A stretch of 64,000 nt of DNA from a virus. The stretch covers positions 1 through 64,000 of IMG/VR virus record IMGVR_UViG_3300026538_000054; one strand, 5' to 3'. The notes below the pieces were generated by a model, which worked only from the letters and a program-made list of their open reading frames with translations, had not been told where the DNA came from and searched no databases. Within the stretch, counting starts at the first letter, position 1, and the number at the start of each line of letters is the position of its first letter. The position numbers and the translations under genes are program-made. Shown piece by piece: positions 3,476-61,315 of this stretch.

Positions 3476-6400
3476 ATGGACCACCAAAGGCTGATTCCTC
3501 CTATGGAGGAGAATGAGTTGCCGCCGGGCCCCTCCTTTCTCGAGCAGGCCGAGCTCATGGGCGGCGGCAACTCCCTTGTAGAACTGCGACGAGACGTTCT
3601 CTACCGAAACGGGACGTGTCTGAACGTTCGGGTCAAGAAGGCGATCGTCACCGTCTCCTGCATCATCGGGCATCTCTGGGGCGAGGAGCTGCCCAGAGGC
3701 CCCGTCCCGGCTGACGTGATGGTCGTTGGCAAGTGGCCCGGCGATCAGGAGGCCTCGGCCCGAAGAAACCTGACCGGCCCGTCGGGCATCATGCTCTCCG
3801 AGTGTCTGAAAGAAGCCGGCGTCACGGGTGACGTGCAGGGAGGCCTCTACGTCACCAACCTGGTCAAACACCCCAGGGCCGACCCGTCTACGGACCAGGT
3901 CTCCTCCACGCAGTTCAAGGACTGGGCCCCGGTCCTTTCCGACGAGATCGCGCTGGTCAGGCCCAAGCTCATTCTCGCCCTGGGCGCCGAGGCCGCCAAG
4001 GCCGTGCTTGGCGCGAAGACGGCCGTCAAGGACGCGCAGTGCTGCTACTTCGAGCGGCAAGTCAGGGCCTTTGGCGAACATCCCGCCTACGCGGCCAGGG
4101 TCGTGGTGGTGACCCACCCTGCGGCCGTGGTGCGCTCCCCGGAGCAGCGCGCCTTCTTCATGGACGGGCTGCGTTACTTCGCAGGCGCCCTTCAGGGCAA
4201 GGTGCAGGCCAAGGAAGCGCCTGTGGACCATCGCGTGGTCTTTGAAGAGGACGAGCTTGCGCAAGTCGTGGACATGGTGATTCAGCGAGGAGGTCCGTCA
4301 CCCCTCATCGTCGTTGACGCCGAGTGGCACGGCGAGCACCAGTCGGAGAACGGCGCTTACCTACGTACCATCCAGTTCTCCGATCAACCGCGCTTCGGCT
4401 GCTGCGTGGTCTTGAGAGGGCAAGGAGGCGGCCCTGGTTTCTGCCCGTCGATCTCCCGCGCCGTCCCTCACCTGCGCAGGCTGTTGACCTCCTCTCCCGG
4501 AAGAGAAGTGCGCATCGCCGGCCACCATCTGCGTGCCGACATCCCGCGCATTTATCACGAGCTGGACAAGGAGCTGGGGCTGGCCCTGATGCGCCAGTAC
4601 GAGGCCGCCAAGAGCCCGGAGGAGATGCGCACCAGGGGCGGCCACGACACCATGCTCATGGCCCACGCGATCAGGGAGACCGGCTTCGCCGAGGGCTTCA
4701 AGCTGGAGTACGTGGCGCAGTCGCTTTTGGGGATGAAGCGCTGGAACGTCGAGCTGGAGCAGTGGAAGCACGACTACTGCCTCAAGCGAAAGATCCCGCA
4801 GAAACATCTGGAGGGTTATGGCGAGTGTCCTGACGAGGTTTTGCACCTTTACTCGATATACGACGTGGATGGCCCACAGAGGCTGCTCGAGCTCTTCACC
4901 AGGCCCGGCGGGCTTCTCGATGCGGACGAGCACGGCAACTCCTCCTGGTTGCCCTACTGGATCAGCATGCGGGCGCAGCAAGCATGGCTCGAGATCGAGA
5001 TGACTGGCCTCTACACCGACAAGAAGGAGAGAGGCCGAGAGCTCACGGAGACCTATCACCAGGCCGCCGTCGCGCTTCTTCAGGAGCTGAAGGTTGACGC
5101 GAACTGGACTGCGTTCAACCCTGGCAGCCACTTCGACTGTCGGGAGCTGCTTTTCGGCGAGCAGTACGCGGGCCGGAAGGACGACCGGACCAGGCCTCAG
5201 GGCGCGGTGTCGCTCTATCTCACTCCCGTCAGGACCACGGGCAAGCCGCCCAAGAACTGGGAAAAGGTGGTAGCTCGCAATGAGCAAGGGCTTTATACGC
5301 CATCGACTGACAAGGAGGTCCTGGGCATCCTTGCGCCCGGTAACCCCCTGGTGAAGAAGCTGCGCAACTGGCGCTTCCTGAGGCAGGTCACTACCAACTC
5401 TCTCAGGGCCCCTGAGACCGACGATGATGGACTGGTGGTGGAGGGCGATGACGGCGAGCCCTTGCAGCTGGGTGGTCTCCTGGGCTCGGTCCGCAGGGAT
5501 GGCCGGATCTACTCGCACTTCTTCCAGACGCAGGAGACAGGCAGGGCGCGATCCGTTAGGCCCAACCTGATGAACTGTACGAAGAGGAGGGAGAAGGACT
5601 ACAAGAAGATCCTTGGTGCGCACTACAAGTACGCCGTCCGTAGCATGTTCACGGCCACGCCCGTGGCGGAGGGCGAGGACCCCTGGCTGCTTGTGGACTT
5701 CGATCTCAAGGGTGCCGAGCTGATGATGACGGCCATCCAGGCGGCCGATCCCGTCATGCTTGACCATTGCCGTCGCAACAACCTGGATGAGGACGACCCG
5801 AACTATTACGACATCCACTCTGCGACGGCCGTGCGAGCCTTTAAGCTGCCATGCCCGCCTACCAAGAAGGGCCTGGAAGGTATCGGCAGGGAGAACTTGC
5901 GCATAGCCGCCAAGTGCGTTGTCTCAGGCTCCAGGCTCCAGACCACGGCTGGCTGGTTTCTGGTCGACTCGCTAGCGGGCGATCTTCCGCCTGACCAGGG
6001 CCGTCTCCATACCGGTGGCCTGGGAGTAGTCAATCACGTCTCGACGACGCCGGTCGTTGGCGTCTACAACGGCGGCGTCAAGCCGTGTCTGCGGGTCGAG
6101 ACCGAGGACGGCTACTCGCTGGAGAGTACGTACACGCATCGCTACTGGGTCATGGGCCCTGACGGCGACATGGTCTTCAAGCAGGCTGGCGATCTTCGGC
6201 TCGGCGACTGGGTGGTTGTGCGTGACGCGGTCGGCCCCTTCGGCGACGATATTGCGTTCCCGAAGGTCCCCTGCTCGCCCAGGACGAGCTTCAAGCCCGT
6301 CGATTTCCCCGAGGAGTTCACCGAGGACTGGGCCGCCTTCCTGGGCCTTTATATCTCTGAGGGCTGGTCCGATCCGGTGAGCGGCGCGGTGGCGATGCAC

Positions 6401-7882
6401 CTTGCGCGAGAGAAAGACCCCGAGCTGGCGGACTTGACGATCGATTTGTACAGACGCCTGTTCGGGGGCCGACCACGTTTTGAAAGCGCCTTCCCCACTG
6501 GCTACCAGGAGCAGACGCGCTACCTGATTAGTTCTGTGGCTCTCGCTCGGTGGATCTACGCGTTCTGCCCAGGGAAAGCTGAGCAGAAGCGCGTGCCGGA
6601 CTTTGTCTTCCGCTGGCCGGAACGGTTGCTAGCGGTTTTTCTGCGCTGGTTGTTCGAGGGCGACGGCTCGATCACCAGGAACAAGACGTCCTTCAAACCG
6701 CGTTACTCGACGTCCAGCCTGGGCCTGGCTCGCGACGTCCGTACGCTGCTTCTCTCCTTCGGCATCACTTGTCACTTGGTCAAAGAGCGACGAGAGGGAT
6801 ACGACAACGACTATTACGCCATAGAGGTCAAGTCGCATCGGTCGAGGATGCGTTTCGCCGAGAAGATCGGCTGCGTTACGAAGTTGAAGACCGACCGGCT
6901 CAAGGTGACCTCGCGATACCAACGAGACTGCTACCCGATACCAGGGCAGCTCAACCGTCTTTTGGCAGTCATGCCCGGCTTGCGCGGCGTGGCCAGGGAG
7001 AAGTGTCGGGAGTGCATCCGGGAGAACGTGCGCGTCGCGTTCAACCGCGTTCGGCTCGTGATGATTATCAAGTCGGCAGACGAGGCGCTTCTGGACGAGA
7101 ACGGTCGCAAGTCCCTGGCAGCGCTTCGTGAGCTCCATCTGGCTCAGATGACGTTCCAGCAGGTAACGGCGTTGATAGACATAGGCGAGCGGCAGGTTTA
7201 CGACGTTCAGACCACTGACGAGCAGAGGCATATCGTCTCCTATGACGGTCTGTTAACTCATCAAACTTGTCTGTTCGGCCTACTGTACGGACGTGGAGAT
7301 GATGCCGTCGTTCGGGCCGTCAAGGAAGAGGAGGTGGACATCACCGCTGAGGAGGCGGCCACGGTTCGCGAGGGCATCTTTGAGGCCTACGCCGGCTTGT
7401 TGCCCTTCTTCGCGTCGGCACAGAGATGTGTGATCAGGCCTGGGCATATCACGAACTGCTTCGGACGACATCGTCGTTTCCCGATGACGAACGATCGGGA
7501 AGCGCTTGAAAAGATGAAGAGGGAGGCTGCCAACTTCAACATCCAGTCGGGCATCGCCGACCTGGTCAGCCGTTGGATGGACAAGCTCTACTCTTACCCC
7601 GGCCGCTTCTTCTCCGACGGTTCGCCGCGCTATCGCCTGGTGTTGCAGCTGCACGATGCGCTCATGGCCGAGTGCCGGGCCAGCCAACTGAGTTGGTTCT
7701 GCGAGGTCGTCATCCCTTCCACCCTGGCCTCCATCCCCGTCTACCGCTGTGACATGGACGGTAAGCGGCTCTCCGCCGAGCCGTTCCATCTCTCCACCGA
7801 CATCGACGTGCAGTACCGCTGGGGCGAGACGCTCACGCCCGAGTTGGCTGATAAGTTGCATGTTCCGCCCGACCTGATCTAG
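3476..7882 (+). CDS. Family A DNA polymerase with N-terminal UDG-like domain, containing an intein
   Basis: 1468 codons including the intein; the spliced protein would be 1018 residues. Residues about 78-235 look like a uracil-DNA glycosylase superfamily domain: GKWPGDQEA (85-93), TNLVKHPR (127-134), ILALGAEA (166 on) and THPAAV (213-218). A DEDD-type 3'-5' exonuclease domain follows, with D281 and E283 in VVDAEWHG. The family A polymerase domain has motif A DFDLKGAEL from D741, motif B RIAAK continuing as TCLFGLLYG across the intein, and motif C LHDALMAE with D1394. The gene sits downstream of helicase and primase. Fusion of a UDG-like domain to the polymerase suggests scanning or repair of uracil during replication; whether it is active is unknown. 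Confidence 0.9.
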   Translation: MDHQRLIPPMEENELPPGPSFLEQAELMGGGNSLVELRRDVLYRNGTCLNVRVKKAIVTVSCIIGHLWGEELPRGPVPADVMVVGKWPGDQEASARRNLTGPSGIMLSECLKEAGVTGDVQGGLYVTNLVKHPRADPSTDQVSSTQFKDWAPVLSDEIALVRPKLILALGAEAAKAVLGAKTAVKDAQCCYFERQVRAFGEHPAYAARVVVVTHPAAVVRSPEQRAFFMDGLRYFAGALQGKVQAKEAPVDHRVVFEEDELAQVVDMVIQRGGPSPLIVVDAEWHGEHQSENGAYLRTIQFSDQPRFGCCVVLRGQGGGPGFCPSISRAVPHLRRLLTSSPGREVRIAGHHLRADIPRIYHELDKELGLALMRQYEAAKSPEEMRTRGGHDTMLMAHAIRETGFAEGFKLEYVAQSLLGMKRWNVELEQWKHDYCLKRKIPQKHLEGYGECPDEVLHLYSIYDVDGPQRLLELFTRPGGLLDADEHGNSSWLPYWISMRAQQAWLEIEMTGLYTDKKERGRELTETYHQAAVALLQELKVDANWTAFNPGSHFDCRELLFGEQYAGRKDDRTRPQGAVSLYLTPVRTTGKPPKNWEKVVARNEQGLYTPSTDKEVLGILAPGNPLVKKLRNWRFLRQVTTNSLRAPETDDDGLVVEGDDGEPLQLGGLLGSVRRDGRIYSHFFQTQETGRARSVRPNLMNCTKRREKDYKKILGAHYKYAVRSMFTATPVAEGEDPWLLVDFDLKGAELMMTAIQAADPVMLDHCRRNNLDEDDPNYYDIHSATAVRAFKLPCPPTKKGLEGIGRENLRIAAKCVVSGSRLQTTAGWFLVDSLAGDLPPDQGRLHTGGLGVVNHVSTTPVVGVYNGGVKPCLRVETEDGYSLESTYTHRYWVMGPDGDMVFKQAGDLRLGDWVVVRDAVGPFGDDIAFPKVPCSPRTSFKPVDFPEEFTEDWAAFLGLYISEGWSDPVSGAVAMHLAREKDPELADLTIDLYRRLFGGRPRFESAFPTGYQEQTRYLISSVALARWIYAFCPGKAEQKRVPDFVFRWPERLLAVFLRWLFEGDGSITRNKTSFKPRYSTSSLGLARDVRTLLLSFGITCHLVKERREGYDNDYYAIEVKSHRSRMRFAEKIGCVTKLKTDRLKVTSRYQRDCYPIPGQLNRLLAVMPGLRGVAREKCRECIRENVRVAFNRVRLVMIIKSADEALLDENGRKSLAALRELHLAQMTFQQVTALIDIGERQVYDVQTTDEQRHIVSYDGLLTHQTCLFGLLYGRGDDAVVRAVKEEEVDITAEEAATVREGIFEAYAGLLPFFASAQRCVIRPGHITNCFGRHRRFPMTNDREALEKMKREAANFNIQSGIADLVSRWMDKLYSYPGRFFSDGSPRYRLVLQLHDALMAECRASQLSWFCEVVIPSTLASIPVYRCDMDGKRLSAEPFHLSTDIDVQYRWGETLTPELADKLHVPPDLI
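5915..7264 (+). other. Intein with LAGLIDADG homing endonuclease, in polymerase motif B
   Basis: 450 residues (814-1263 of the precursor). It starts with Cys (CVVSGSRL, splicing block A), has a block B-like ESTYTHRYWV, two LAGLIDADG motifs (FLGLYISEGW near 955 and FLRWLFEGDGS near 1055) and ends with block F/G YDVQTT then LLTHQ. The next residue is Thr. Removing the segment restores a standard motif B (RIAAK-TCLFGLLYG), which fixes both borders. The last intein residue is Gln rather than the usual Asn, a known but less common variant. The two dodecapeptide motifs suggest the homing endonuclease may still be functional. Confidence 0.93.
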
Positions 7883-8325: not shown

Positions 8326-10035
8326 ATGCTTCCCATGCAGCACCGCAACCCACCTCCCGAGCCTCGCTTTGACTGGGGCCGCGACGCCGACCGAGCCCAG
8401 GGCTCCTTTGGCAACCATCTGCTCAAGGCGGGCATCAACGCCGTCTTGAAGAAGCCGTCCTACACGGCCGGCGAGACGGTGGTCCGTCCCTTCCCGAGCC
8501 TCTCCTACCAGGACGTCAACCAGTTCGAGCCCTACCGCAAGAACGCCCAACTCGACAGTCGCTTCGGCAACTGGATCAGGAAGTACGACTGCGCCTGGAG
8601 CGTCGGCCAGGGCCCGCAGCGCAAGACCTTCCTGACTCACGATCCGGGCTCGGGCAAGCCCTACGACCCCGACGGTACGCCCCTCAACATCCTCTACAAC
8701 GCGATCTACCAGGCCAAGAAGCGCGAGGAGGACATTCGCCGCAACCCGAACTTCGTGATGCTCTTCGAGAGGGAGCGCGATGCGGGCCCGCCCCTCGAGA
8801 GGACCAAGACCGTCTACCTGATCCAGGGCATGGTGATCCTGTCGGACGGCAAGCCGACCTACTCCCACGACCGACCGCCCCTGGGAGGGGGCGGGCCGAC
8901 GTCGCCGTCGTGCATCTTCATGATCTCGGGCGGCAGCCCGATGGGCAGCTTCTCGGCGGGCAACCAGCTCTGCAGCCAGCTCAACGAGGAGAGGCTGGAC
9001 TACCAGGGGCCGGCCGACGACTTCGAGGCCCGTTACGTCCACGGCGACCCGGTGGCCCCGGAGCATGGCCGGTTCTTCCATTTCCGAAAGTCCGGCACGG
9101 CCGTTACGGCCCCCGGCGCCGGGCCAGGCGGCCCCGCCGGCTGGCGAGCGGCCCCGGCCGTACAGCAGGCCGTCCAGGGCGGGCGCCAGCAGGCCCTCCA
9201 GGGCGGCTACGACGTCTGGGTCTCCAACGGCCCTTTGTTCGACAACAGCACGCCCTACATGGGCTCGGCGGAAGACCTGGAGATGATCCGGCAGAAGTGG
9301 ATCTACTGGGAGGACGCGCTGCACTTCCCGGACTACGAGGAGCAGGCCTACTACCTCAACCAGGTCTTCCCGCCCAACGCCATCGTCTACGCCTTCCAGG
9401 GCGCCAAGAGGCACTGGATCAGTGACGAGACCTGGAGGGCGTTCAACGGATCGGTGACCGCTCAGGCCTTGACGCCCGACGCTGTGCGGCAGCCGCAGTT
9501 CGCGCCGCCGACGGCTCAGCAGGGCGCGCCGGCGGGCGGCGGGCAGGGTTGGCGAGGCGCTTCGGCGGCACCTCTCCAGCAGCCGCCGGTGGCGAGGGCT
9601 AGCCAGCCGCAGGTCGCCCCGCAAAAGCAGCAGGCGGCCCCCGGCCAGATGGACATGCAGGCCGAGCTCGACCGGCTGCGCGCCCTCGTCAGGCAGGGCC
9701 AAACTCAGGTCGCGGCGGCCGAGGCTTCGGTGTTACGCGGCCCGAGGGCCCAGGAGCTTGTGGACTTCCCGCCGCGCGACGACATGCCGGCCAGCCCGCT
9801 GGACACCGTCATGGGCGGCGACGAGCCGACGGTCTACCAGGCCGGCCAGCCGGTCCAGATCGGCGGTCACGTCGGTCACCCCGACGGGCGACAGCTCGCG
9901 GTGGACCCGGTGGTGCCCAGGGGAGGCATGCCGGACGAGCCGGCCCCGGTCGAAGGCGATAACAGCGCGCCCGTCTTCTCTCGGCTGGCCGACATGCTGC
10001 GCCAGCGACGCGGCGAACAGCAGCCGCCCAAGTAA
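8326..10035 (+). CDS. Hypothetical protein with Gln/Pro-rich tail; candidate ssDNA-binding protein
   Basis: 569 residues. Residues 1-280 are rich in aromatics and charged residues (FGNWIRKYDCAWSVG). The region from about residue 385 is low-complexity, rich in Gln, Ala and Pro, ending in an acidic stretch and a basic DMLRQRRGEQ tail. Placement between the polymerase and a RecA-like gene, the aromatic content and the disordered tail recall phage single-strand-binding proteins, but I see no diagnostic motif, so this is inference. The 71 bases upstream contain an extended -10-like TGGTATTCT. Confidence 0.55.
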   Translation: MLPMQHRNPPPEPRFDWGRDADRAQGSFGNHLLKAGINAVLKKPSYTAGETVVRPFPSLSYQDVNQFEPYRKNAQLDSRFGNWIRKYDCAWSVGQGPQRKTFLTHDPGSGKPYDPDGTPLNILYNAIYQAKKREEDIRRNPNFVMLFERERDAGPPLERTKTVYLIQGMVILSDGKPTYSHDRPPLGGGGPTSPSCIFMISGGSPMGSFSAGNQLCSQLNEERLDYQGPADDFEARYVHGDPVAPEHGRFFHFRKSGTAVTAPGAGPGGPAGWRAAPAVQQAVQGGRQQALQGGYDVWVSNGPLFDNSTPYMGSAEDLEMIRQKWIYWEDALHFPDYEEQAYYLNQVFPPNAIVYAFQGAKRHWISDETWRAFNGSVTAQALTPDAVRQPQFAPPTAQQGAPAGGGQGWRGASAAPLQQPPVARASQPQVAPQKQQAAPGQMDMQAELDRLRALVRQGQTQVAAAEASVLRGPRAQELVDFPPRDDMPASPLDTVMGGDEPTVYQAGQPVQIGGHVGHPDGRQLAVDPVVPRGGMPDEPAPVEGDNSAPVFSRLADMLRQRRGEQQPPK

Positions 10036-11996: not shown

Positions 11997-12033
11997 CTAC
12001 CAAAGCCCTCTGTAGCGGGCTAGAAGCTGCAAA
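11997..12033 (+). repeat. Solitary CRISPR-repeat-like element
   Basis: 37 bases with the array-repeat core AAAGCCCTCTGTAGCGGGCT followed by AGAAGCTGCAAA. The GCCC/GGGC stem bases are kept. A truncated second copy begins near 12049 (CTACCAAAGACCTCTG). It lies about 65 bases upstream of the next gene start and in the same sense. Confidence 0.85.
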
Positions 12034-14404: not shown

Positions 14405-14441
14405 GTCGCAGCATTGAGCCCGCCGCAGAGGGCTTTGATAC
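14405..14441 (-). repeat. Solitary CRISPR-repeat-like element, minus strand
   Basis: Read on the minus strand it is a 37-base copy of the array repeat with AAAGCCCTCTGCGGCGGGCT and ending ATGCTGCGAC. It lies between two + strand genes, so it is not in the sense of its neighbours. Confidence 0.85.
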
Positions 14442-24616: not shown

Positions 24617-24653
24617 GTCGCAGCATTCAGCCCGCTGCGGAGGGCTTTGGTCC
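24617..24653 (-). repeat. Solitary CRISPR-repeat-like element, minus strand
   Basis: 37 bases, on the minus strand AAAGCCCTCCGCAGCGGGCT with ending ATGCTGCGAC. It lies in the 401-base gap upstream of cas12. That gap (24548-24948) also holds the + strand copy at 24787; I see no supported gene in it. Confidence 0.88.
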
Positions 24654-24786: not shown

Positions 24787-24823
24787 GCGCCAAGGCTCTC
24801 TGCAGCGGACTAAATGCTGCAAA
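24787..24823 (+). repeat. Degenerate CRISPR-repeat-like element upstream of cas12
   Basis: GCGCCAAGGCTCTCTGCAGC then GGACTAAATGCTGC. Diverged in both stem arms (GGCTC and GGACT instead of AGCCC and GGGCT). It lies 126 bases before the cas12 start, in the same sense, so it could be part of its regulatory region. Confidence 0.75.
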
Positions 24824-24948
24824 ACCAATCGGTCCCACCTTTCAGGCCCCCTCTGTTGCTACCGTACATCCGTTCACAGAGTCAGGGCCTGCGCGGCGGC
24901 GCGGTAGCCGCGGCTGGCGATCCGGCCGACCCATGAAGGAGCGCTATC

Positions 24949-26835
24949 TTGAGCGAACAACTTGACGACACGCCCGAACAACCGAACGAGGTCGAAGAGA
25001 CCAAGAAGAGGAAACAACGCAACAAAGGCAAGCACCCGGCCAGGATCTGGAGCGTCTTCTCCAGATACCTGGTCTCGGGGCGTGAGCACTTCGACAAGCA
25101 GGTGCTCCTGGCCCATCGGTTCAGGAACAAGCTCGTGGAGCTGGAGCTCCAGCGGCGCGCCGCCGCCAACGTCGTGATCGCGCAGGCCTCTTCCGAGCTG
25201 CAGCCTTTGATCGACGCCCTGGCCGCCGCTGAGCAGGTTCTCGAAGTCAGTCTTCAAGAGCTGAAGGCCGTGAGGGCCAAGCACAGGAGAAGGGCTGAAA
25301 GCGCGGCGCAACGAGATGCTGTCACCAACGCGAGGACGGCTAGGAACCAGGCCTCCAAGGCCCTCTCTAAAGCCAGGAAGGACGCCTTCGCTTCCGAGGC
25401 GGCGCAGGTCGGCCTCTGGCTTGCGGAGGAGCACCACTTCCAGGCCGTCCTGGCCGCCCGTCATGCTTTCATCAACGACGGCCTCTACTGGCCGACGGCC
25501 ACGGACGTCCAGGACCGTGCGCGCGCCATGCGAAAGGGTGCCCCTCCCGTCTTCAGGCGGTTCGGCGGCGCGGAGCAAGCGGGCCGCATCGCCGTCCAGA
25601 TCCAGAAGAGCACCGACAAGTCCCAGTCTGAGGGCGGCATCACCTTTGAGGAGGCCTTCTCCTGCTCCCACGGCTTCTTCCGGCTGGAGAAGAAGCCAGG
25701 GCGCGACCCTTTGCCAGAGATCGCCGACCAGCCCGACTACAAGTCCAAACGGCAACAGCTCCTGACCTACGCCCGCGCCTGGCTGCGCGTCGGCTCGGAG
25801 GGCAAGGGCGCCAGGGCCAAGCCCTGCTGGGTCGTCGCCGATGTGCTTCTCACCCGGCAGGCCCCCAAGACGGCGCGGATCGTCCAGGTCTACCTGGACC
25901 ACTCGGTGATCGGCGATCGAGAGCGCTGGCGACTCAGCTTGGTGCTCACCAACCAAGAGGGCTGGCCCAAGCCCAACCGGGCCTCGGGCTGCATGGTCGG
26001 TATTGACCTCGGCTGGCGACTGCTCGATACCGGTGAGCTGCGAGTCGCCTACGCCTGCGGCGCCGATGGACAGCACCACGAGCTGCGGCTGCCCGCCTCC
26101 CTGGTCAAGGTCTGGCGCCGGCCCGATCGCATCCAGCAGGAGAGGGACAACCTCTTCAACGACGTCAAGGCGAGGCTCCTTGAGTGGCTCAAAGGGAGGG
26201 AGGACCTTCCCGACTGGCTCAAGGAGCAAGCGGAGCATCTGCATCTCTGGAAGTCATCCACCAGGCTCTCGCGGCTGGTGGATCACTGGGCCGGTCGAGA
26301 TATCAACTGGTCGAGCCAGAGGCGCATCGCCGGGGACGAGGAGATCCTCGCGTCCTTGCGCGGCTGGGTGAAACGCAACCTCCACCTGCGCGACTACCAG
26401 TATCACGAGCGTGAGCAGTTGGCGGCCCATCGTCTTGATGTCTACAGGAAGTGGGCTGACGGTCTGGCCAGGCTCTACCAGACGGCCGTCCTCGAAGACG
26501 CCGACTGGCGAGACCTAGCGCGACTCCCATCGCCTGAAGACGACGCCGTCAACGAGACCGCGCGCTACAACCAACGCATGGCCTCGCCCGGTCTACTGGC
26601 CTCCGTGATCACGAACATGTTCGCGATCACGAGCAGGGTGGAGTGCGCGAACACCACCAGGGAGTGCTGGCGCTGCGGCCATACGGAGGCGTTCGACGCC
26701 GAGGCGCAGTTGATCAGGGTTTGTCCTGGCTGCGGTGATGCGTGCGACCAAGACGAGAGCGCTGCTCGCGTCCTGCTCGCGAGAGGGCAGGCCCTAAACC
26801 AGTCACAAGTCGCCGAAGCTGCGCCAAGTTCTTGA
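24949..26835 (+). CDS. Compact Cas12-family (type V) CRISPR effector, Cas12m-like
   Basis: 628 residues from TTG at 24949, with AAGGAG upstream. The split RuvC nuclease domain is readable: RuvC-I GIDLGWRL with D353, RuvC-II TAVLEDADW with E516, a zinc ribbon CWRC (573-576) and CPGC (592-595), and RuvC-III DQDESAARVLL with D602. The N-terminal 340 residues are basic and partly coiled-coil, consistent with guide-RNA and PAM recognition lobes. It is larger than TnpB and much smaller than Cas12a. The GxDLGWR plus ELRVAYA signature and the size recall Cas12m/V-U1; other small phage Cas12 types are possible. Characterised Cas12m proteins bind rather than cut DNA, although all three acidic residues seem present here. 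No cas1, cas2 or cas4 is nearby; the CRISPR array follows. Confidence 0.85.
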   Translation: MSEQLDDTPEQPNEVEETKKRKQRNKGKHPARIWSVFSRYLVSGREHFDKQVLLAHRFRNKLVELELQRRAAANVVIAQASSELQPLIDALAAAEQVLEVSLQELKAVRAKHRRRAESAAQRDAVTNARTARNQASKALSKARKDAFASEAAQVGLWLAEEHHFQAVLAARHAFINDGLYWPTATDVQDRARAMRKGAPPVFRRFGGAEQAGRIAVQIQKSTDKSQSEGGITFEEAFSCSHGFFRLEKKPGRDPLPEIADQPDYKSKRQQLLTYARAWLRVGSEGKGARAKPCWVVADVLLTRQAPKTARIVQVYLDHSVIGDRERWRLSLVLTNQEGWPKPNRASGCMVGIDLGWRLLDTGELRVAYACGADGQHHELRLPASLVKVWRRPDRIQQERDNLFNDVKARLLEWLKGREDLPDWLKEQAEHLHLWKSSTRLSRLVDHWAGRDINWSSQRRIAGDEEILASLRGWVKRNLHLRDYQYHEREQLAAHRLDVYRKWADGLARLYQTAVLEDADWRDLARLPSPEDDAVNETARYNQRMASPGLLASVITNMFAITSRVECANTTRECWRCGHTEAFDAEAQLIRVCPGCGDACDQDESAARVLLARGQALNQSQVAEAAPSS

Positions 26836-26894: not shown

Positions 26895-27015
26895 TACTAG
26901 TTAGTGTTTACGGCGGCTACCGTGTAGCAACTTGTCGTAACGGGTCGTCTGGTTGGTAACGCGCTCGCGTGGCTGGTTGTAACCTCTTGTCCTATCGCGT
27001 GCTACGCTACCGAGG

Positions 27016-28304
27016 GTGACAAAGCCCTGTGCAGCGGGCTCAAAGCTGCGACGGGTCGTGAGCCGTCTGCTCGAGACGGTCGGCGATCTGGTGACAAAGC
27101 CCTGTGCAGCGGGCTCAAAGCTGCGACTCGCTCATGGTTGCGTTCCTTTCGGTGGACCCGGTGGTGACAAAGCCCTGTGCAGCGGGCTCAAAGCTGCGAC
27201 TACAAGACCTGGATGACGATCTTCCCCAACGTCCCGCAGTGACAAAGCCCTGTGCAGCGGGCTCAAAGCTGCGACGTTGTCCGGCGGCTTCGGCTCGACC
27301 TGGATGATCTCGTGACAAAGCCCTGTGCAGCGGGCTCAATGCTGCGACGTACTATGTACCGGAAAAGGCTCTCGAGGAGGCCGTGTGACAAAGCCCTGTG
27401 CAGCGGGCTCAAAGCTGCGACGGCGGCTGTCTTCGAGTTCGCCTCCGGGAGGAGATGGTGACAAAGCCCTGTGCAGCGGGCTCAAAGCTGCGACTAATGC
27501 TCCTTTAACAGGCGGAACGCTTCTTCCGCCGTGACAAAGCCCTGTGCAGCGGGCTCAAAGCTGCGACAAACCGTGCCGAAAGGTATCCTCATGTCCGATT
27601 CGTGACAAAGCCCTGTGCAGCGGGCTCAAAGCTGCGACGTGCTGCTCGGGCTGCTCGGGCTGCTTGGGCTGCTTGGGGTGACAAAGCCCTGTGCAGCGGG
27701 CTCAAAGCTGCGACCGGCAAGCTGGACGTTCAGCGAGCGGCCGACGTGATGTGACAAAGCCCTGTGCAGCGGGCTCAAAGCTGCGACTAGCTGGCTGCCT
27801 TGCACGACTGCGCAAATGCCCGGAAGTGACAAAGCCCTGTGCAGCGGGCTCAAAGCTGCGACTGGGTGCGCGTTGACCAGGACAACCGCGAGCTGATCGG
27901 TGACAAAGCCCTGTGCAGCGGGCTCAAAGCTGCGACTCCAGCAACTGGGGCCCAGGCCGACCCTCGGGCACATCGTGACAAAGCCCTGTGCAGCGGGCTC
28001 AAAGCTGCGACGACCGGCGTTCCTCAAGTCGCAACACGGCCTTGCCAGGTGACAAAGCCCTGTGCAGCGGGCTCAAAGCTGCGACGCACATGTGTTCTTT
28101 TGTCCCCTGCTTCGCCACCGTGTAACAAAGCCCTGTGCAGCGGGCTCAAAGCTGCGACGGTTGCTGCCGACCGCTTGGTCGCGGAGGAGGTTCGCGTGCC
28201 AAAGCCCTCCCCAGTGGGCTAAAAGCTGCGACCGCCACTCCGTCACTTGAATGCTGTCGGTCTTTTTGTGCCAAAGCCCTACGCAGCGGGCTACAAGCTG
28301 CAAC
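27016..28304 (+). CRISPR. CRISPR array, 18 repeats, 17 spacers
   Basis: The repeat is 37 bases: GTGACAAAGCCCTGTGCAGC followed by GGGCTCAAAGCTGCGAC. Repeats start at 27016, 27091, 27164, 27239, 27312, 27385, 27458, 27531, 27602, 27678, 27751, 27826, 27900, 27975, 28049, 28122, 28196 and 28268. Fourteen are identical. 27312 has CAATGCTG instead of CAAAGCTG, 28122 starts GTAAC, and the last two are strongly degenerate, which marks the right end as the trailer. Spacers are 34-39 bases. Spacer 1 (27053-27090) matches this same window exactly at 37632-37669. Spacer 9 (27639-27677) is low-complexity. I found no other internal match by eye. The repeat can form an AGCCC/GGGCT stem. The 121 bases between the hairpin and the first repeat are the leader. 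Confidence 0.97.
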
Positions 28305-32267: not shown

Positions 32268-32750
32268 ATGGCCCGTGGTGCTGCTTGGTGGGACCGGTTC
32301 TTCCTGGGCATGGCGCAGTACGTCTCGACGGCGTCTAAAGACCCCAGCACGAAGGCTGGCGCCGTGGTTGTGGATGACAAACGCAGGGTCGTAAGTGTCG
32401 GCTACAACGGCTTCGCACGCGGCGTGGTTGACGACCCTGCACGCTACACTAATCGCGAGCTCAAGTACAAAATGATCCTGCACGCTGAGCGCAACGCGCT
32501 ACTGTTTGCCGGCCGATCGCTTGAGAACTGCGTCCTCTACACCTGGCCGTTCATGACCTGCTCCGTCTGCGCGGCGATGGTCATCCAGACCGGTATCGTT
32601 CGGTGTGTCGCCCCTCCCATACCTGACCATCTGCAAGCTCGCTGGGGCGAGGACATGGCCCTGGCCGCGACCATGCTCCGCGAGGCCGGCGTCAGTCTGG
32701 TCGTTTATGAGGGGGAGATCAACGAGCGCAAGGACTGTTGCAGCACGTAG
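32268..32750 (+). CDS. dCMP/cytidine deaminase-like enzyme
   Basis: 160 residues. Typical deaminase order: KDPSTKAGAVVVDD, VSVGYNGFARG, the zinc ligand and catalytic Glu in LHAERNAL, and the second zinc site FMTCSVCAAMVIQTG, where the usual Pro-Cys is Thr-Cys. It probably makes dUMP from dCMP for phage thymidylate supply. The 3' end overlaps a CRISPR-like repeat at 32742. Confidence 0.8.
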   Translation: MARGAAWWDRFFLGMAQYVSTASKDPSTKAGAVVVDDKRRVVSVGYNGFARGVVDDPARYTNRELKYKMILHAERNALLFAGRSLENCVLYTWPFMTCSVCAAMVIQTGIVRCVAPPIPDHLQARWGEDMALAATMLREAGVSLVVYEGEINERKDCCST

Positions 32751-32778
32751 CCCTCTGCAGCGGGCTGAAAGCTGCGAC
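32742..32778 (+). repeat. Solitary CRISPR-repeat-like element
   Basis: TAGCCCTCTGCAGCGGGCT followed by GAAAGCTGCGAC; the 5' third is diverged. It overlaps the last nine bases of the deaminase gene, including its stop. Confidence 0.8.
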
Positions 32779-35543: not shown

Positions 35544-35635
35544 CATATTCGGACCGCCACGAAAGCAACCATGTTTCTCAGCAATTCTCAGCAACAAGGC
35601 CGCTGAGAAGGCCTTCATCTCTGATGGTAGCAACC

Positions 35636-36862: not shown

Positions 36863-36899
36863 TAATGCTGGCCCTCTGCAGCGGGCTGAATGCTGCAAA
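36863..36899 (+). repeat. Solitary CRISPR-repeat-like element
   Basis: GGCCCTCTGCAGCGGGCT followed by GAATGCTGCAAA; the 5' part is diverged. Begins seven bases after the regulator stop. The ATGCTGCAAAA end is repeated once immediately after. Confidence 0.8.
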
Positions 36900-36933: not shown

Positions 36934-36973
36934 AGAGACAAGGCCGGTGGCAATTGCCACCGGCCTTGTCTCT
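36934..36973. terminator. 40-bp perfect palindrome, copy 1
   Basis: AGAGACAAGGCCGGTGGCAA followed by its exact reverse complement, then TTCTCTT. A bidirectional terminator or cruciform between the regulator and the repeat cluster. Confidence 0.75.
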
Positions 36974-37030
36974 TTCTCTTAGCTATCGAGCCGCGTGCGC
37001 CTTTCCCATGCGGGTGTTATGCTGTAGGCC

Positions 37031-37204
37031 GTACCAGAGCCATACGCAGCGGGCTAAAAGCTGCGAAGGATGGCGACCTGTGTCAAAGCCCTGCGCAGCG
37101 GGCTGAATGCTGCGAGAGGATGTCCCACTCCCTGGCCACGGTGGGTGACAAAGCCCTTTGCAGCGGGCTTAAAGCTGCGACGCAGCGGGGTAAGTGCTGT
37201 AACA
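37031..37204 (+). repeat. Cluster of three CRISPR-like repeats plus one fragment
   Basis: Copies at 37031-37067, 37080-37116 and 37145-37181, and a truncated one (GCAGCGGGGTAAGTGCTG) at 37183-37204. The copy at 37145 (GTGACAAAGCCCTTTGCAGC) is close to the array consensus. Intervals are only 12 and 28 bases, too short for normal spacers. The cluster lies directly upstream of the gene that array spacer 1 matches. Confidence 0.85.
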
Positions 37205-37223: not shown

Positions 37224-37724
37224 ATGTCCGAACACGAGTTGCTGCGCTCCATCAATCAACGCCTCGCACACATAGGCCGCTCGACGGACGCTATCGCCTC
37301 GGCTGTCTTCCTTATCGTGCGAAAGTTGCTCGATGAGGAGCAAGGTGGCCTGTCGCCCGAAGACGCCGCCAAAGTGCTCGCCCGACTGACGGCCCACGAC
37401 CAAGCTCTCGAGGACATCGTCGCCGAGCAAACCGACGAGAGCTCTTCCACGCTCGGCAAACACCACTCAGTAGCGAGAACCGCGATGGCTATTCCGCAAG
37501 CCTTGCAGGACATCTTGGCCAAGATTGACGCCGACACCAGCGCCCTGGCCGCGGTGGTCCTGGACCTGCGCAACAAGATCAGCACGGGCATGTCCCAGGA
37601 GGACGTGGTCGCCGTACAGACCACCCTGGGTCAGATCGCCGACCGTCTCGAGCAGACGGCTCACGACCCCAACGCGCCGGTGCCGCCCGGCCCTCAACCG
37701 GTCTTCGCCGGCCGCAAGCCGTAA
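37224..37724 (+). CDS. Coiled-coil phage protein, target of array spacer 1
   Basis: 166 residues from ATG at 37224. Two similar helical modules, IASAVFLIVRKLLDEEQGG and LAAVVLDLRNKISTGMS, each followed by a coiled-coil helix, with a PNAPVPPGP tail. Similar short coiled-coil proteins occur beside phage tail and virion genes. The gene is framed by two 40-bp perfect palindromes, preceded by a CRISPR-repeat cluster, and contains the exact protospacer of spacer 1 at codons about 137-149. Confidence 0.65.
   Translation: MSEHELLRSINQRLAHIGRSTDAIASAVFLIVRKLLDEEQGGLSPEDAAKVLARLTAHDQALEDIVAEQTDESSSTLGKHHSVARTAMAIPQALQDILAKIDADTSALAAVVLDLRNKISTGMSQEDVVAVQTTLGQIADRLEQTAHDPNAPVPPGPQPVFAGRKP
37632..37669 (-). 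other. Protospacer matching array spacer 1 (38 of 38)
   Basis: The minus strand from 37669 to 37632 is identical to spacer 1 at 27053-27090 (starts GGGTCGTGAGCCGTC, ends GGTCGGCGATCTG). The five bases 5' of the protospacer on that strand are CGTTG, so TTG is adjacent, as expected for T-rich type V PAMs. The 3' flank (ACCCAG) differs from the repeat, so the array itself is distinguishable from the target. Confidence 0.95.
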
Positions 37725-37820: not shown

Positions 37821-37925
37821 CGTTTTGTCGCGTGCGTGTTAACCTGGCGACAGGCCTACTCGGCGGCCTAATAGCCGAGAAGTAGCCTAGAACGGAAAAA
37901 GAAACGAGCTAATAGCTAAAAGAAA

Positions 37926-48252: not shown

Positions 48253-48412
48253 CTTCCGGTCTCGGGACCGGCTGAGGGTGACTGACCCCTCCCCTTTCTT
48301 CCGCTCCCGTGCCTTGTCACCCCTCCTGAATTTCCTTGCTTGTCGGACGAATACCGTCTAGTCTGGTCTGGTAGGGTCTCGTTTCTTCTTGCGCCTGGAA
48401 AGAGGAGGACGG

Positions 48413-50329
48413 ATGGGCGGTCTTCGTGCGGTAACCAGGGCGGGGGTCGTGGCGGTCTTCTGTCTGGTGGTGGGGGGAGTAGGCGTTTTCAACCTGTTGT
48501 CCTGGTCTGCACCGGCGGCCACAGAGATCGTGCTGCCTGGTCAAGCGGCGGCTGTTGCGCGGAAAGGGCTACCGGTCCAGCTGACCGGCGCGCTGCTTCG
48601 CGAAGGTATGAGGCTCATCCCGTGGGCGTCGTTGTTGGAAGTTAACGCCCGCGCGAACTTCACAGTTCGGCTTCAGTCGCTAGGAGTGACCGGCCAGTTT
48701 GAGGTGTCTACGGGACAGTCGGATGACGAACGAGCGCTAGTCGAGGCCGGCAAACGGTTTAAGAGCGAAACCAACGCCATCCTCAAGCAGCAGCTCCTGG
48801 TCATGATCGACACGCTGAAGGAGCAGAAGGAGCGCAACCGCTTGCTCAGGGAGCAGACGCGAGTTGCCCAGCATCTTCTTGACCTCCAGATACGCGCCTT
48901 CGATTACCAGAAGTGGGTTCAGGAAGAAGCCATTTTGCGCAAGAAGGAGTACAGCGTCCCAGTTGACAAGTTAGTGGTCGTCGTGGCGGACTTTTCCAGC
49001 GGCAATCAGGACGAGGGGCGCGAGGTCGCCGACGAGATCGCCCACCACTTGACTGAGCTGTCCCGAAACGGCCTGGACATCCATGTTCTCAATGGCGAGA
49101 TACGGCCGGGCGTCGCGGTGCGAAGCGAGGAGATGGCCCGTGATATTGGCCGGCACTTCCCTGGGACCGACTTCGTCGTGGTCTGGGGCTCGATGTCGCC
49201 ACGCACCGTCGGCCGCTACCGCCCGCATCTGACTTGCGTGCAGTACGTCAAGGGCGCCAAGGCCGCCAGCGTCACCACGTCGATAAACCTTGACCCCGGC
49301 GAGCTGCCGGAGAAGGGCAAGGCGGAGGCTTACCAGCGGGCGTGTTACGAGCGGCTGATCGGCGCGACCTGTGCCGCCATCCCGAGTCTCTACGCGGCCT
49401 ACCAGATCAGACGGGACAAGGTGCCGCAACTGAGCGGTATCTTCAAACTGCTCGGTGACGAACAGCCGGAGACCAAGCAACTAAAGGCGAAGCTCTTGCC
49501 ATTGACCCGGTGGGCCAAGGTCAGTTCGGCTCTGAAGGCCACCCGGTTGTGCCGACTCTCTGACATCTCCTCGGATCGGCCGTTCCCGCTCCGTGTGGTC
49601 AACGAGAAGGATGGCAGCCTTATGGCCCTGGTCACGGATGAGAAGGGCGAACCGCGCAAGTTCTACAACGAGGCGTCGAAGAAACAGGAGTACGTGTACG
49701 TCGACGTGCTTGAGACGACGGTGAGTCAGTTCATCAGGTTCCTGAACGCGAGCGGCGGCAACAAGAAGGGAGGCGGTCACGACTGGCTCTATATGAAGTC
49801 GGACGTCCCGCACTGGGACATTGCCGAGGAGAAAGGGACTTTTATCGAGCGGCCAGATGCTAAGCGCAAGGAGGGGATCGTCCGCGGTCGGCTGCCTGTC
49901 ACCAACATGAGCTGGTTCGGGGCGGTTGCTTACTGCGAGTGGGCCGGCAAGTCGCTGCCGCGTAGAGAGGAGTGGCAGGCTGCCGCCGAGCCTCAGGGCG
50001 GCGGAGAGTTTCCGTGGGGCAAGGACGGAGCTAGTTTTGCCAGGCTTTGCAACGCGGGCAACCGTGACTACCACCTCCACGGCGGCTCGCGCCCTCGTGA
50101 CTGCAGTCGTGTGGGCTGCTTCGACATGGCCGGCAACGTGGCCGAGTGGTGCGCGGACTGGTTTGACGAGAAGGCGGGCAAGCGCATGGTCATGGGAGGG
50201 CACTGCGAGGACACCGAGGTCGCCAACGTCAAGATTACGGCGAAAAAAGGCGAGTACCAGACAAACTACGACTGGAAGATCGGCTTCCGCGGGGTCGTGC
50301 GTATCCCGGTCGATCTCGGGCAGGACTGA
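48413..50329 (+). CDS. Membrane-anchored protein with FGE-sulfatase (C-type-lectin-like) domain
   Basis: 638 residues from ATG at 48413, with AGAGGAGGA upstream. One N-terminal membrane helix (AGVVAVFCLVVGGVGVFNLL), a coiled-coil region, a central domain with VVVVADFSSGNQDEGRE, and a C-terminal FGE-sulfatase/SUMF1-like domain: VYVDVLETTVSQFIRFLN, PVTNMSWFGAVAYCEWAG, LPRREEWQAAA, GCFDMAGNVAEWC and a final GFRGVVRI. Such domains are used in Gemmata signalling and surface proteins and in phage ligand-binding proteins. No reverse transcriptase is visible, so it is not obviously a diversity-generating-retroelement target. Confidence 0.75.
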   Translation: MGGLRAVTRAGVVAVFCLVVGGVGVFNLLSWSAPAATEIVLPGQAAAVARKGLPVQLTGALLREGMRLIPWASLLEVNARANFTVRLQSLGVTGQFEVSTGQSDDERALVEAGKRFKSETNAILKQQLLVMIDTLKEQKERNRLLREQTRVAQHLLDLQIRAFDYQKWVQEEAILRKKEYSVPVDKLVVVVADFSSGNQDEGREVADEIAHHLTELSRNGLDIHVLNGEIRPGVAVRSEEMARDIGRHFPGTDFVVVWGSMSPRTVGRYRPHLTCVQYVKGAKAASVTTSINLDPGELPEKGKAEAYQRACYERLIGATCAAIPSLYAAYQIRRDKVPQLSGIFKLLGDEQPETKQLKAKLLPLTRWAKVSSALKATRLCRLSDISSDRPFPLRVVNEKDGSLMALVTDEKGEPRKFYNEASKKQEYVYVDVLETTVSQFIRFLNASGGNKKGGGHDWLYMKSDVPHWDIAEEKGTFIERPDAKRKEGIVRGRLPVTNMSWFGAVAYCEWAGKSLPRREEWQAAAEPQGGGEFPWGKDGASFARLCNAGNRDYHLHGGSRPRDCSRVGCFDMAGNVAEWCADWFDEKAGKRMVMGGHCEDTEVANVKITAKKGEYQTNYDWKIGFRGVVRIPVDLGQD

Positions 50330-54657: not shown

Positions 54658-54767
54658 GTTCCAAAGCCCTGTGTAGCGGGCTAAAAGCTGCAACCGGTAG
54701 ACGGGGTGGCGCGAGAGCCACGGCTCGGCCGTGCCAAAGCCCTCTGCAGCGGGCTGAAAGCTACAAA
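54658..54767 (+). repeat. Two-repeat mini-CRISPR array
   Basis: Repeats at 54658-54694 (GTTCCAAAGCCCTGTGTAGC start) and 54731-54767 (GTGCCAAAGCCCTCTGCAGC start), period 73 bp with a 36-base spacer (54695-54730). The period equals that of the main array. It lies 39 bases before the gene at 54807 and in its sense. Confidence 0.88.
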
Positions 54768-56820: not shown

Positions 56821-56930
56821 GTTGCGGCATCCAGCCCGCCGCACAGGGCTTTGACACACGGTGAGACTGGGCGTAGCGTCATCGGTTCACGATGTTGCAG
56901 CTTTCAGCCCGCTGCAGAGGGCTTTGGAAC
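56821..56930 (-). repeat. Two-repeat mini-CRISPR array, minus strand
   Basis: Copies at 56894-56930 and 56821-56857, both minus strand, period 73 bp, spacer 36 bases (56858-56893). It lies four bases after the excisionase-like gene and antisense to it, so it cannot be its promoter. Confidence 0.88.
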
Positions 56931-57068: not shown

Positions 57069-57105
57069 CCATCTAAGCCCTGTGCAGCGGGCTCAATGCT
57101 GCAAA
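57069..57105 (+). repeat. Solitary CRISPR-repeat-like element
   Basis: TAAGCCCTGTGCAGCGGGCT followed by CAATGCTGCAAA. Very close to the array consensus, including the CAATG variant seen in array repeat 5. It faces the 3' end of the integrase gene. Confidence 0.88.
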
Positions 57106-59251: not shown

Positions 59252-59288
59252 TCCTTTTAGCCCTCTACAGCGGGCTAAAAGCTGCGAC
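59252..59288 (+). repeat. Solitary CRISPR-repeat-like element
   Basis: TTAGCCCTCTACAGCGGGCT followed by AAAAGCTGCGAC. Its 5' bases merge with the T-run of the terminator. It lies 28 bases upstream of the gene at 59317 and in its sense. Confidence 0.85.
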
Positions 59289-61207: not shown

Positions 61208-61315
61208 AGACCAAAGCCCTCCGCAATGGGCTAAAAGCTGCGACGGAGGCGGGAATACGCGACGACGCGACGTTCTACTTGCCAAAGCCCTCTGTAGCGG
61301 GCTAAAAGCTGCAAT
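61208..61315 (+). repeat. Two-repeat mini-CRISPR array
   Basis: Repeats at 61208-61244 (AAAGCCCTCCGCAATGGGCT core) and 61279-61315 (AAAGCCCTCTGTAGCGGGCT core), period 71 bp with a 34-base spacer (61245-61278). It lies 78 bases before the gene at 61394. Confidence 0.88.

Follow-up and report, generated by a model that had tools for sequence, protein, structure and literature searches.

Putative solo crRNA units of a phage type V-M CRISPR system: dispersed pseudoknot repeats and a repeat cluster in the probable leader of a self-matched gene

The three repeats and repeat fragment that precede a 166-residue orphan gene form one of many such sites along a 199-kb contig, which also carries a Cas12m effector gene and a CRISPR array. 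The window analysed here is a stretch of 64,000 nucleotides of viral DNA (IMG/VR record IMGVR_UViG_3300026538_000054, positions 1 to 64,000), the features of which are collected in Table 1. It would seem that the cluster, lying in the leader of the 166-residue gene, is best explained as a short mini-array in partial decay, belonging to a set of solo crRNA units and mini-arrays that the phage's own V-M system has throughout the genome, a reading that we put a little short of an even chance.

The contig holding the window, C51, is 199,122 bp long and was found in a bin of 107 contigs and 5.39 Mb. Its two ends overlap by 100 identical bases, suggesting that the assembly is circular, though the frame of an IS4-like transposase, identified by reading its translation, sits at that end and the assembly may instead have broken inside an IS element. 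Judged by its gene content C51 is a phage. It encodes a terminase large subunit (E 6e-39; identity to the closest terminases among the IMG/VR matches is about 50%), a DnaB-like helicase and an SbcC-like protein. A protein of 1834 residues (window coordinates 67877-73381) contains RNA polymerase beta-subunit stretches together with a stretch that matches a thymidylate-synthase PHROG and is possibly an intein, and a protein of 1468 residues (3476-7882) joins uracil-DNA glycosylase and DNA polymerase A domains with an intein that has a LAGLIDADG domain. A simple gene call gave 222 genes and left 11% of C51 intergenic. The window also encodes a 646-residue protein with a sulfatase-modifying-factor (FGE) domain (48389-50329).

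The effector of 628 residues matches PADLOC Cas12u1 over residues 45-614 (E 5e-75) and the Cas12m of PDB entry 23vw (E 3e-52), with which its RuvC motif I and last RuvC motif align; on these matches it is assigned to subtype V-M. Cas12m proteins bind DNA next to a PAM without cleaving it, and their pre-crRNA is trimmed within the repeats independently of RuvC (PMC11013384). The array, which adjoins cas12m, has 16 spacers, and its repeat, GTGACAAAGCCCTGTGCAGCGGGCTCAAAGCTGCGAC, folds into the Cas12m stem-plus-pseudoknot scaffold as an H-type pseudoknot in which AGCCC/GGGCT is crossed by TGCAGC/GCTGCG. Neither Cas1 nor a second Cas12m was found in any contig of the host bin. Searches of viral contig and genome contig collections with the single protein gave no Cas12m relatives, and tblastn of named phages gave one, from Virus Rctr197k (30% identity over 91%). 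The leader of cas12m itself contains an extended -10 motif followed by a pseudoknot with the geometry of the element, its pairs counted by eye with no tool, and this suggests self-regulation.

Searching the bin for the core motif of the repeat with up to three mismatches gave 57 matches, all on C51, while the reversed pattern gave none. Dispersed, diverged copies on C51 number at least 46 (47 listed places minus 144609, a poor partial match, with the 16 uniform array repeats left out). They cover most of the contig, occur on both strands and are almost all intergenic; about ten either run a few bases into the end of a called gene or come that close to a stop codon. At several places two repeats stand together with the 71-73 nt period of the array itself (54658/54731, 56894/56821, 61208/61279 and 88352/88424). 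Two neighbouring genes outside the window with a common terminator module (window coordinates 73420-73560 and 74040-74200) differ in that only one has the element between its stop codon and the terminator, a pair that resembles an occupied site beside a vacant one.

A general host repeat was ruled out, as the core was absent from the other 106 contigs of the bin and, with up to one mismatch, from 397 other genomes of the phylum. Elsewhere the element pattern gave three isolated, chance-like matches in bacterial genomes. A pseudoknot module common to related phages that lack Cas12m was rejected as well: in the six contigs compared, those of five terminase relatives and of Rctr197k, the core element is lacking and there is at most one promoter-plus-pseudoknot per contig. 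A 40-kb IMG/VR contig, L078, has one handle-like pseudoknot with a GCGGC/GCCGC second helix (9113-9139), which is a possible solitary repeat unit.

The crRNA of Cas12m2 has a stem and a six-pair pseudoknot helix that ends at -3; A(-2) takes part in a G.A pair, and C(-1) is contacted base-specifically (PMC10442227). The phage repeat shows the same plan, with stem 1, the pseudoknot helix, the G.A pair at its base and C(-1). To count pairs, 40 dispersed copies picked by sequence only were used, and copies selected partly for their pairing were left out. In these, 97.5% of cells are paired and double changes occur at five pairs, in 22 cells; the sixth pseudoknot pair, for example, is U-A in 19 copies, C-G in 14 and U-G in 6. 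None of 500 shuffles reached the observed pairing values, and the signal was lost when the partner was slid by one to three columns; these counts include related copies more than once and are strong, yet give no formal probability. The unpaired T(-25), which our own alignment places where Cas12m2 has its flipped-out base, is invariant in the 39 copies that were counted. Of these, 33-34 keep A(-11), A(-10) and A(-2) and 26 keep C(-1), while the bases flanking the unit are not conserved at either side. Position -24 is C in most dispersed copies, as against G in the array and in Cas12m2. More distant versions of the pseudoknot, AGGCC/GGCCT with CTCAGC/GCTGAG or CTCGGC/GCCGAG, are found at 35585, 37845, 164223 and 165245, and stems are broken at 61208, 28196, 54731 and 37031. 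From the shared 37-nt boundaries and the agreement at paired and key unpaired positions, the scattered copies appear to belong to the V-M system.

Many of the copies also have a promoter motif at a fixed distance. Of the 35 leading copies, those that do not closely follow another repeat, 11 have a TANNNT ending at exactly 7 nt in front, as against 0-4 at other offsets and none for the 28 tandem repeats. Offset 2, with four motifs, includes the three AGGCC variants, in which the unit boundary is shifted. The chance of 11 in 35 at offset 7 is about 2e-17 against an intergenic background of 0.5% per position, or about 5e-16 allowing for 25 offsets, though independence is reduced by common ancestry; upstream of the motif there is no conservation save in two pairs of copies. 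The 11 comprise the first repeat of the array (27016) and ten dispersed copies, the reported cluster among them, and ten of the 11 motifs have the extended -10 form TGNTANNNT. With an extended -10 motif exactly 7 nt upstream, transcription should start at the repeat. The copies at 164223 and 165245 agree at 17-19 of 20 positions in each window between -40 and the end of the handle, with unrelated sequence on both flanks, and those at 24617 and 61208 have promoter and handle in common and diverge from the end of the handle. Promoter and handle thus stay constant and are duplicated as a unit, and the sequence downstream changes.

Table 1. Positions in the window of the effector gene, array, repeats, promoters and related features
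Position	Strand	Feature	Remarks
11997..12033	+	Dispersed repeat	
14405..14441	-	Dispersed repeat	Promoter at -7
24617..24653	-	Dispersed repeat with promoter	Antisense to 3' side of preceding gene
24787..24823	+	Dispersed repeat	Upstream of cas12m
24878..24914	+	Element-like pseudoknot in cas12m leader	Stem 2 6/6, stem 1 4/5 pairs; downstream of TGCTACCGT at 24857-24865
24949..26835	+	Cas12m (V-M / V-U1) effector	628 aa, TTG start; PADLOC Cas12u1 and PDB 23vw matches
27000..27008	+	Extended -10 motif TGCTACGCT	Ends 7 nt before first array repeat
27016..28304	+	CRISPR array	16 near-identical repeats, then two diverged (28196, 28268)
27053..27090	+	Spacer 1, self-matching	Leader-proximal, after leader-side first repeat
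32742..32778	+	Dispersed repeat	Overlaps stop codon
33198..33234	-	Dispersed repeat	Promoter at -7
35585..35621	-	Variant pseudoknot	AGGCC/GGCCT with CTCAGC/GCTGAG
36863..36899	+	Dispersed repeat	In 3' UTR of HTH gene, before terminator
36934..36973	+	Strong intrinsic-terminator-like hairpin	Isolates cluster from upstream HTH gene
37015..37023	+	Extended -10 promoter motif TGTTATGCT	Ends 7 nt before repeat 1
37031..37067	+	Cluster repeat 1, 37 nt	Stem 1 4/5 pairs (one broken)
37080..37116	+	Cluster repeat 2, 37 nt	Pseudoknot fully paired
37117..37144	+	Second cluster interval, 28 nt	Suffices for 17-bp Cas12m guide
37145..37181	+	Cluster repeat 3, 37 nt	Fully paired; 2/37 positions differ from array repeat
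37182..37204	+	Repeat fragment	Without 5' arm of stem 1
37224..37724	+	166-aa orphan gene	Starts 20 nt after fragment; holds spacer 1 protospacer
37632..37669	-	Spacer 1 protospacer	38/38, PAM TTG
37845..37881	+	Variant pseudoknot, after TGTTAACCT	AGGCC/GGCCT with CTCGGC/GCCGAG
54658..54767	+	Two-repeat mini-array with promoter	Repeats at 54658, 54731; period 73
56821..56930	-	Two-repeat mini-array with promoter	Repeats at 56894, 56821; period 73
57069..57105	+	Dispersed repeat	
59252..59288	+	Dispersed repeat	Directly 3' of terminator-like hairpin
61208..61315	+	Two-repeat mini-array with promoter	Repeats at 61208, 61279; period 71
11978, 21696, 32250, 37809, 56959, 61101		TTTTCCGGAAAA palindrome	Seven more on C51

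At the cluster itself, the arrangement described in the sequence-only reading, three full repeats and a fragment within 174 bases just before the gene, was confirmed, as were intervals of 12 nt (37068-37079) and 28 nt (37117-37144) and a protospacer for spacer 1 in the body of the gene that follows. That the repeats lie in an mRNA leader is probably also right: the terminator-like hairpin at 36934-36973 and TGTTATGCT at 37015-37023 come before them, no motif comparable to TGTTATGCT was found between 37031 and 37224, and transcription is predicted to begin with repeat 1, at about 37030-37031. The proposal that these are effector-binding RNA elements agrees with the structure: the repeats look like such elements, the pseudoknot of the Cas12m2 crRNA (PMC10442227) being kept by compensatory changes. 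The intervals had been thought too short for standard guides. This holds for the first, which at 12 nt is doubtful, but not for the second, which would be usable given that the Cas12m2 heteroduplex has 17 bp (PMC10442227); a target for the 28-nt interval was not found on C51. Minimum-energy folding of the 193-nt leader gave a stability not above that of shuffles (z 0.48) and is uninformative here because the element is a pseudoknot, which the program cannot form. Rfam gave only sub-threshold matches, the nearest on the terminator palindrome and none a family match on the three repeats. The 166-residue protein is without a PHROG or phage homologue and has a weak, sub-threshold match to DUF4795 in Pfam.

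Spacer 1 is a perfect reverse complement of its protospacer, and the sequence 5′ of the latter is CGTTG, giving a TTG PAM that fits the TTN of Cas12m2 (PMC10442227). Repeats upstream and a protospacer within had been taken to link this gene to the CRISPR system in two ways. A same-strand element, however, lies in the upstream gap of 20 of the 222 called genes, so that repeats would stand before a self-matched gene by chance with a probability of about 9% (0.09), and the double link is not evidence of a designed one. The cluster is thus not a special site.

Besides spacer 1, spacer 15 (28086-28121) has a 34/36 match just 5′ of the IS4-like transposase frame near the end of C51 (window coordinates -32039 to -32004), with the flank CAATC, that is, ATC rather than TTN. 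Searched as one continuous natural stretch, the array region matched nothing convincingly elsewhere in the bin and, in named phages, gave only low-complexity matches, from one low-complexity spacer; the first 20 nt of spacer 1 are absent from viral contigs. For the dispersed guides and mini-array spacers C51 was the search scope, and no convincing target was found there. Their TTN-flanked seed matches show a slight excess (p ~0.06-0.1) when judged against intergenic controls, shuffled controls overstating it as intergenic guides resemble one another, and this is largely the result of one guide on the repeated TTTTCCGGAAAA palindrome. The palindrome, with 13 occurrences on C51, at least several of them intergenic, is a second dispersed motif of the phage.

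If the cluster is a mini-array, then RNA would start from the extended -10 promoter at the first base of the repeat and fold into the two-stem pseudoknot, which Cas12m would bind, trimming the RNA inside the repeats; the sequence 3′ of each repeat would then serve as guide. Each unit would in this way yield a complex of Cas12m and crRNA that blocks transcription at the DNA it binds and leaves that DNA uncut, and where a unit doubles as an mRNA leader, as at the cluster, binding and trimming by Cas12m may in addition lower or tune expression of the downstream gene, here that of the 166-residue protein. Several points speak against the mini-array reading, namely the 12-nt first interval, the broken pair in repeat 1, the C at -24, the lack of convincing guide targets on C51, the absence of scattered copies from Rctr197k and, although the program cannot form pseudoknots, the folding stability of the leader, which is no greater than that of shuffles.

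A role in cis, in which Cas12m binds and trims the handles in the leader to control translation or stability of the 166-residue gene and the flanks are not guides, is rather less probable, though it fits the position of the cluster, inside a probable leader behind a terminator and promoter and 20 nt before a start codon. The 20 genes with a same-strand element upstream, the element-like pseudoknot in the leader of cas12m and the RuvC-independent trimming of pre-crRNA by Cas12m (PMC11013384) would all fit it. It is also close to the sequence-only reading, which suggested effector-binding elements in the mRNA leader. As the main role of the repeats such regulation is not supported. Six of the 11 promoter-bearing first repeats point into the 3′ end of a gene on the opposite strand, and aimed in this way they are not leaders of that gene; most promoter-bearing copies are not before a co-oriented gene, and stop codons precede several copies. 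The degraded state of repeat 1 and of the fragment is, moreover, unlike what would be expected of leader sites under selection.

It is also unlikely that the copies are decoys of the kind of solitary repeat units (SRUs) or RNA anti-CRISPRs, which would occupy the Cas12m of competing plasmids or phages, or that of the phage itself, with the guide irrelevant. Their anatomy is that of SRUs, typically solitary repeats directly 3′ of a predicted promoter in viral intergenic sequence (PMC10651486), the guides are unconserved and variable in length with no targets found on C51, and V-M systems are common on plasmids (PMC11656645). Decoys would, however, inhibit the phage's own Cas12m and array too, the host bin has no second Cas12m that was found, and tens of copies together with two-repeat arrays that have 36-nt spacers exceed what a decoy needs. 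Relics, either pieces of an old array or a passive intergenic repeat spread by recombination and now functionless, are improbable as an account of the class, for although the copies are diverged, restricted to one replicon and in places broken in their stems (61208, 28196, 54731 and 37031), compensatory changes in the pseudoknot, conserved unpaired bases at effector-contact positions and exact promoter spacing would be unexpected in relics; single sites, the cluster for instance, may nevertheless be decaying.

Returning to solo crRNA units and mini-arrays, a further step would be a distributed network of guide RNAs, in which a promoter-plus-handle cassette has multiplied to tens of sites, the DNA downstream of each serves as guide, and Cas12m times or silences genes that belong to the phage itself, to sister phages or to the host. 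We regard this as a speculative extension with a low probability. If the units were expressed and loaded, the phage would use a natural CRISPR-interference protein as a regulator with many guides. The CRISPR parts known from phages so far are arrays, mini-arrays and solitary decoy repeats, and what is noteworthy here is that one phage genome combines effector and array with tens of free-standing handles, which are conserved in structure and in many cases bear promoters. The cassette structure, fixed in promoter and handle and varying downstream, bears on the origin of solo crRNA genes. In the open-access literature searched, which includes V-M systems of phages or plasmids (PMC11656645), a genome-wide handle set together with its cognate effector was not found.

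The phage system resembles the described V-M systems (MmCas12m2, GoCas12m and MsCas12m) in effector family, in a single effector adjoining the array, in the 37-nt stem-plus-pseudoknot repeat and in the TTN-type PAM; those systems have one array, whereas the phage has tens of diverged, scattered scaffolds, many with their own promoter. SRUs or Racr (Camara-Wilpert 2023, PMC10651486) are, like the promoter-bearing phage copies, single viral intergenic repeats directly 3′ of a promoter. They are, however, solitary, without partial repeats or cas genes nearby, whereas the phage encodes the cognate effector beside an array, its copies number at least 46 and are partly in tandem, and the cluster consists of three repeats and a fragment on a contig with cas12m and array.

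The mini-arrays of SPV1 and SPV2 (Medvedeva 2019, PMC6858448) likewise lie in viral intergenic sequence and have one or two spacers of normal length and a promoter-bearing leader. The sites at 54658/54731, 56894/56821 and 61208/61279 share these properties, the cluster with its 12 and 28 nt only partly. SPV1 and SPV2 depend on host cas genes, with host-type repeats and with spacers against related viruses, while here the effector is viral, the bin is without Cas1 or a matching repeat and no convincing targets of the dispersed guides were found on C51. In CreR and CreA (reviewed in PMC12737573) crRNA-like RNAs with a stand-alone repeat guide an effector to silence genes of their own genome, as is proposed here; these are type I and V-A, found in cells, one per locus and with partial matches to promoters, whereas no such matches were demonstrated for the phage.

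The one other phage comparable in having Cas12m is Rctr197k (KX853510), a 197-kb phage with a Cas12m relative and an array repeat of the same scaffold plan, which differs in having no repeat copies outside its array. Its Cas12m relative is annotated as transposase-like and lies beside the main array, and a second annotated CRISPR adjoins another transposase-like protein (L037, 6574-6828 and 13792-15306).
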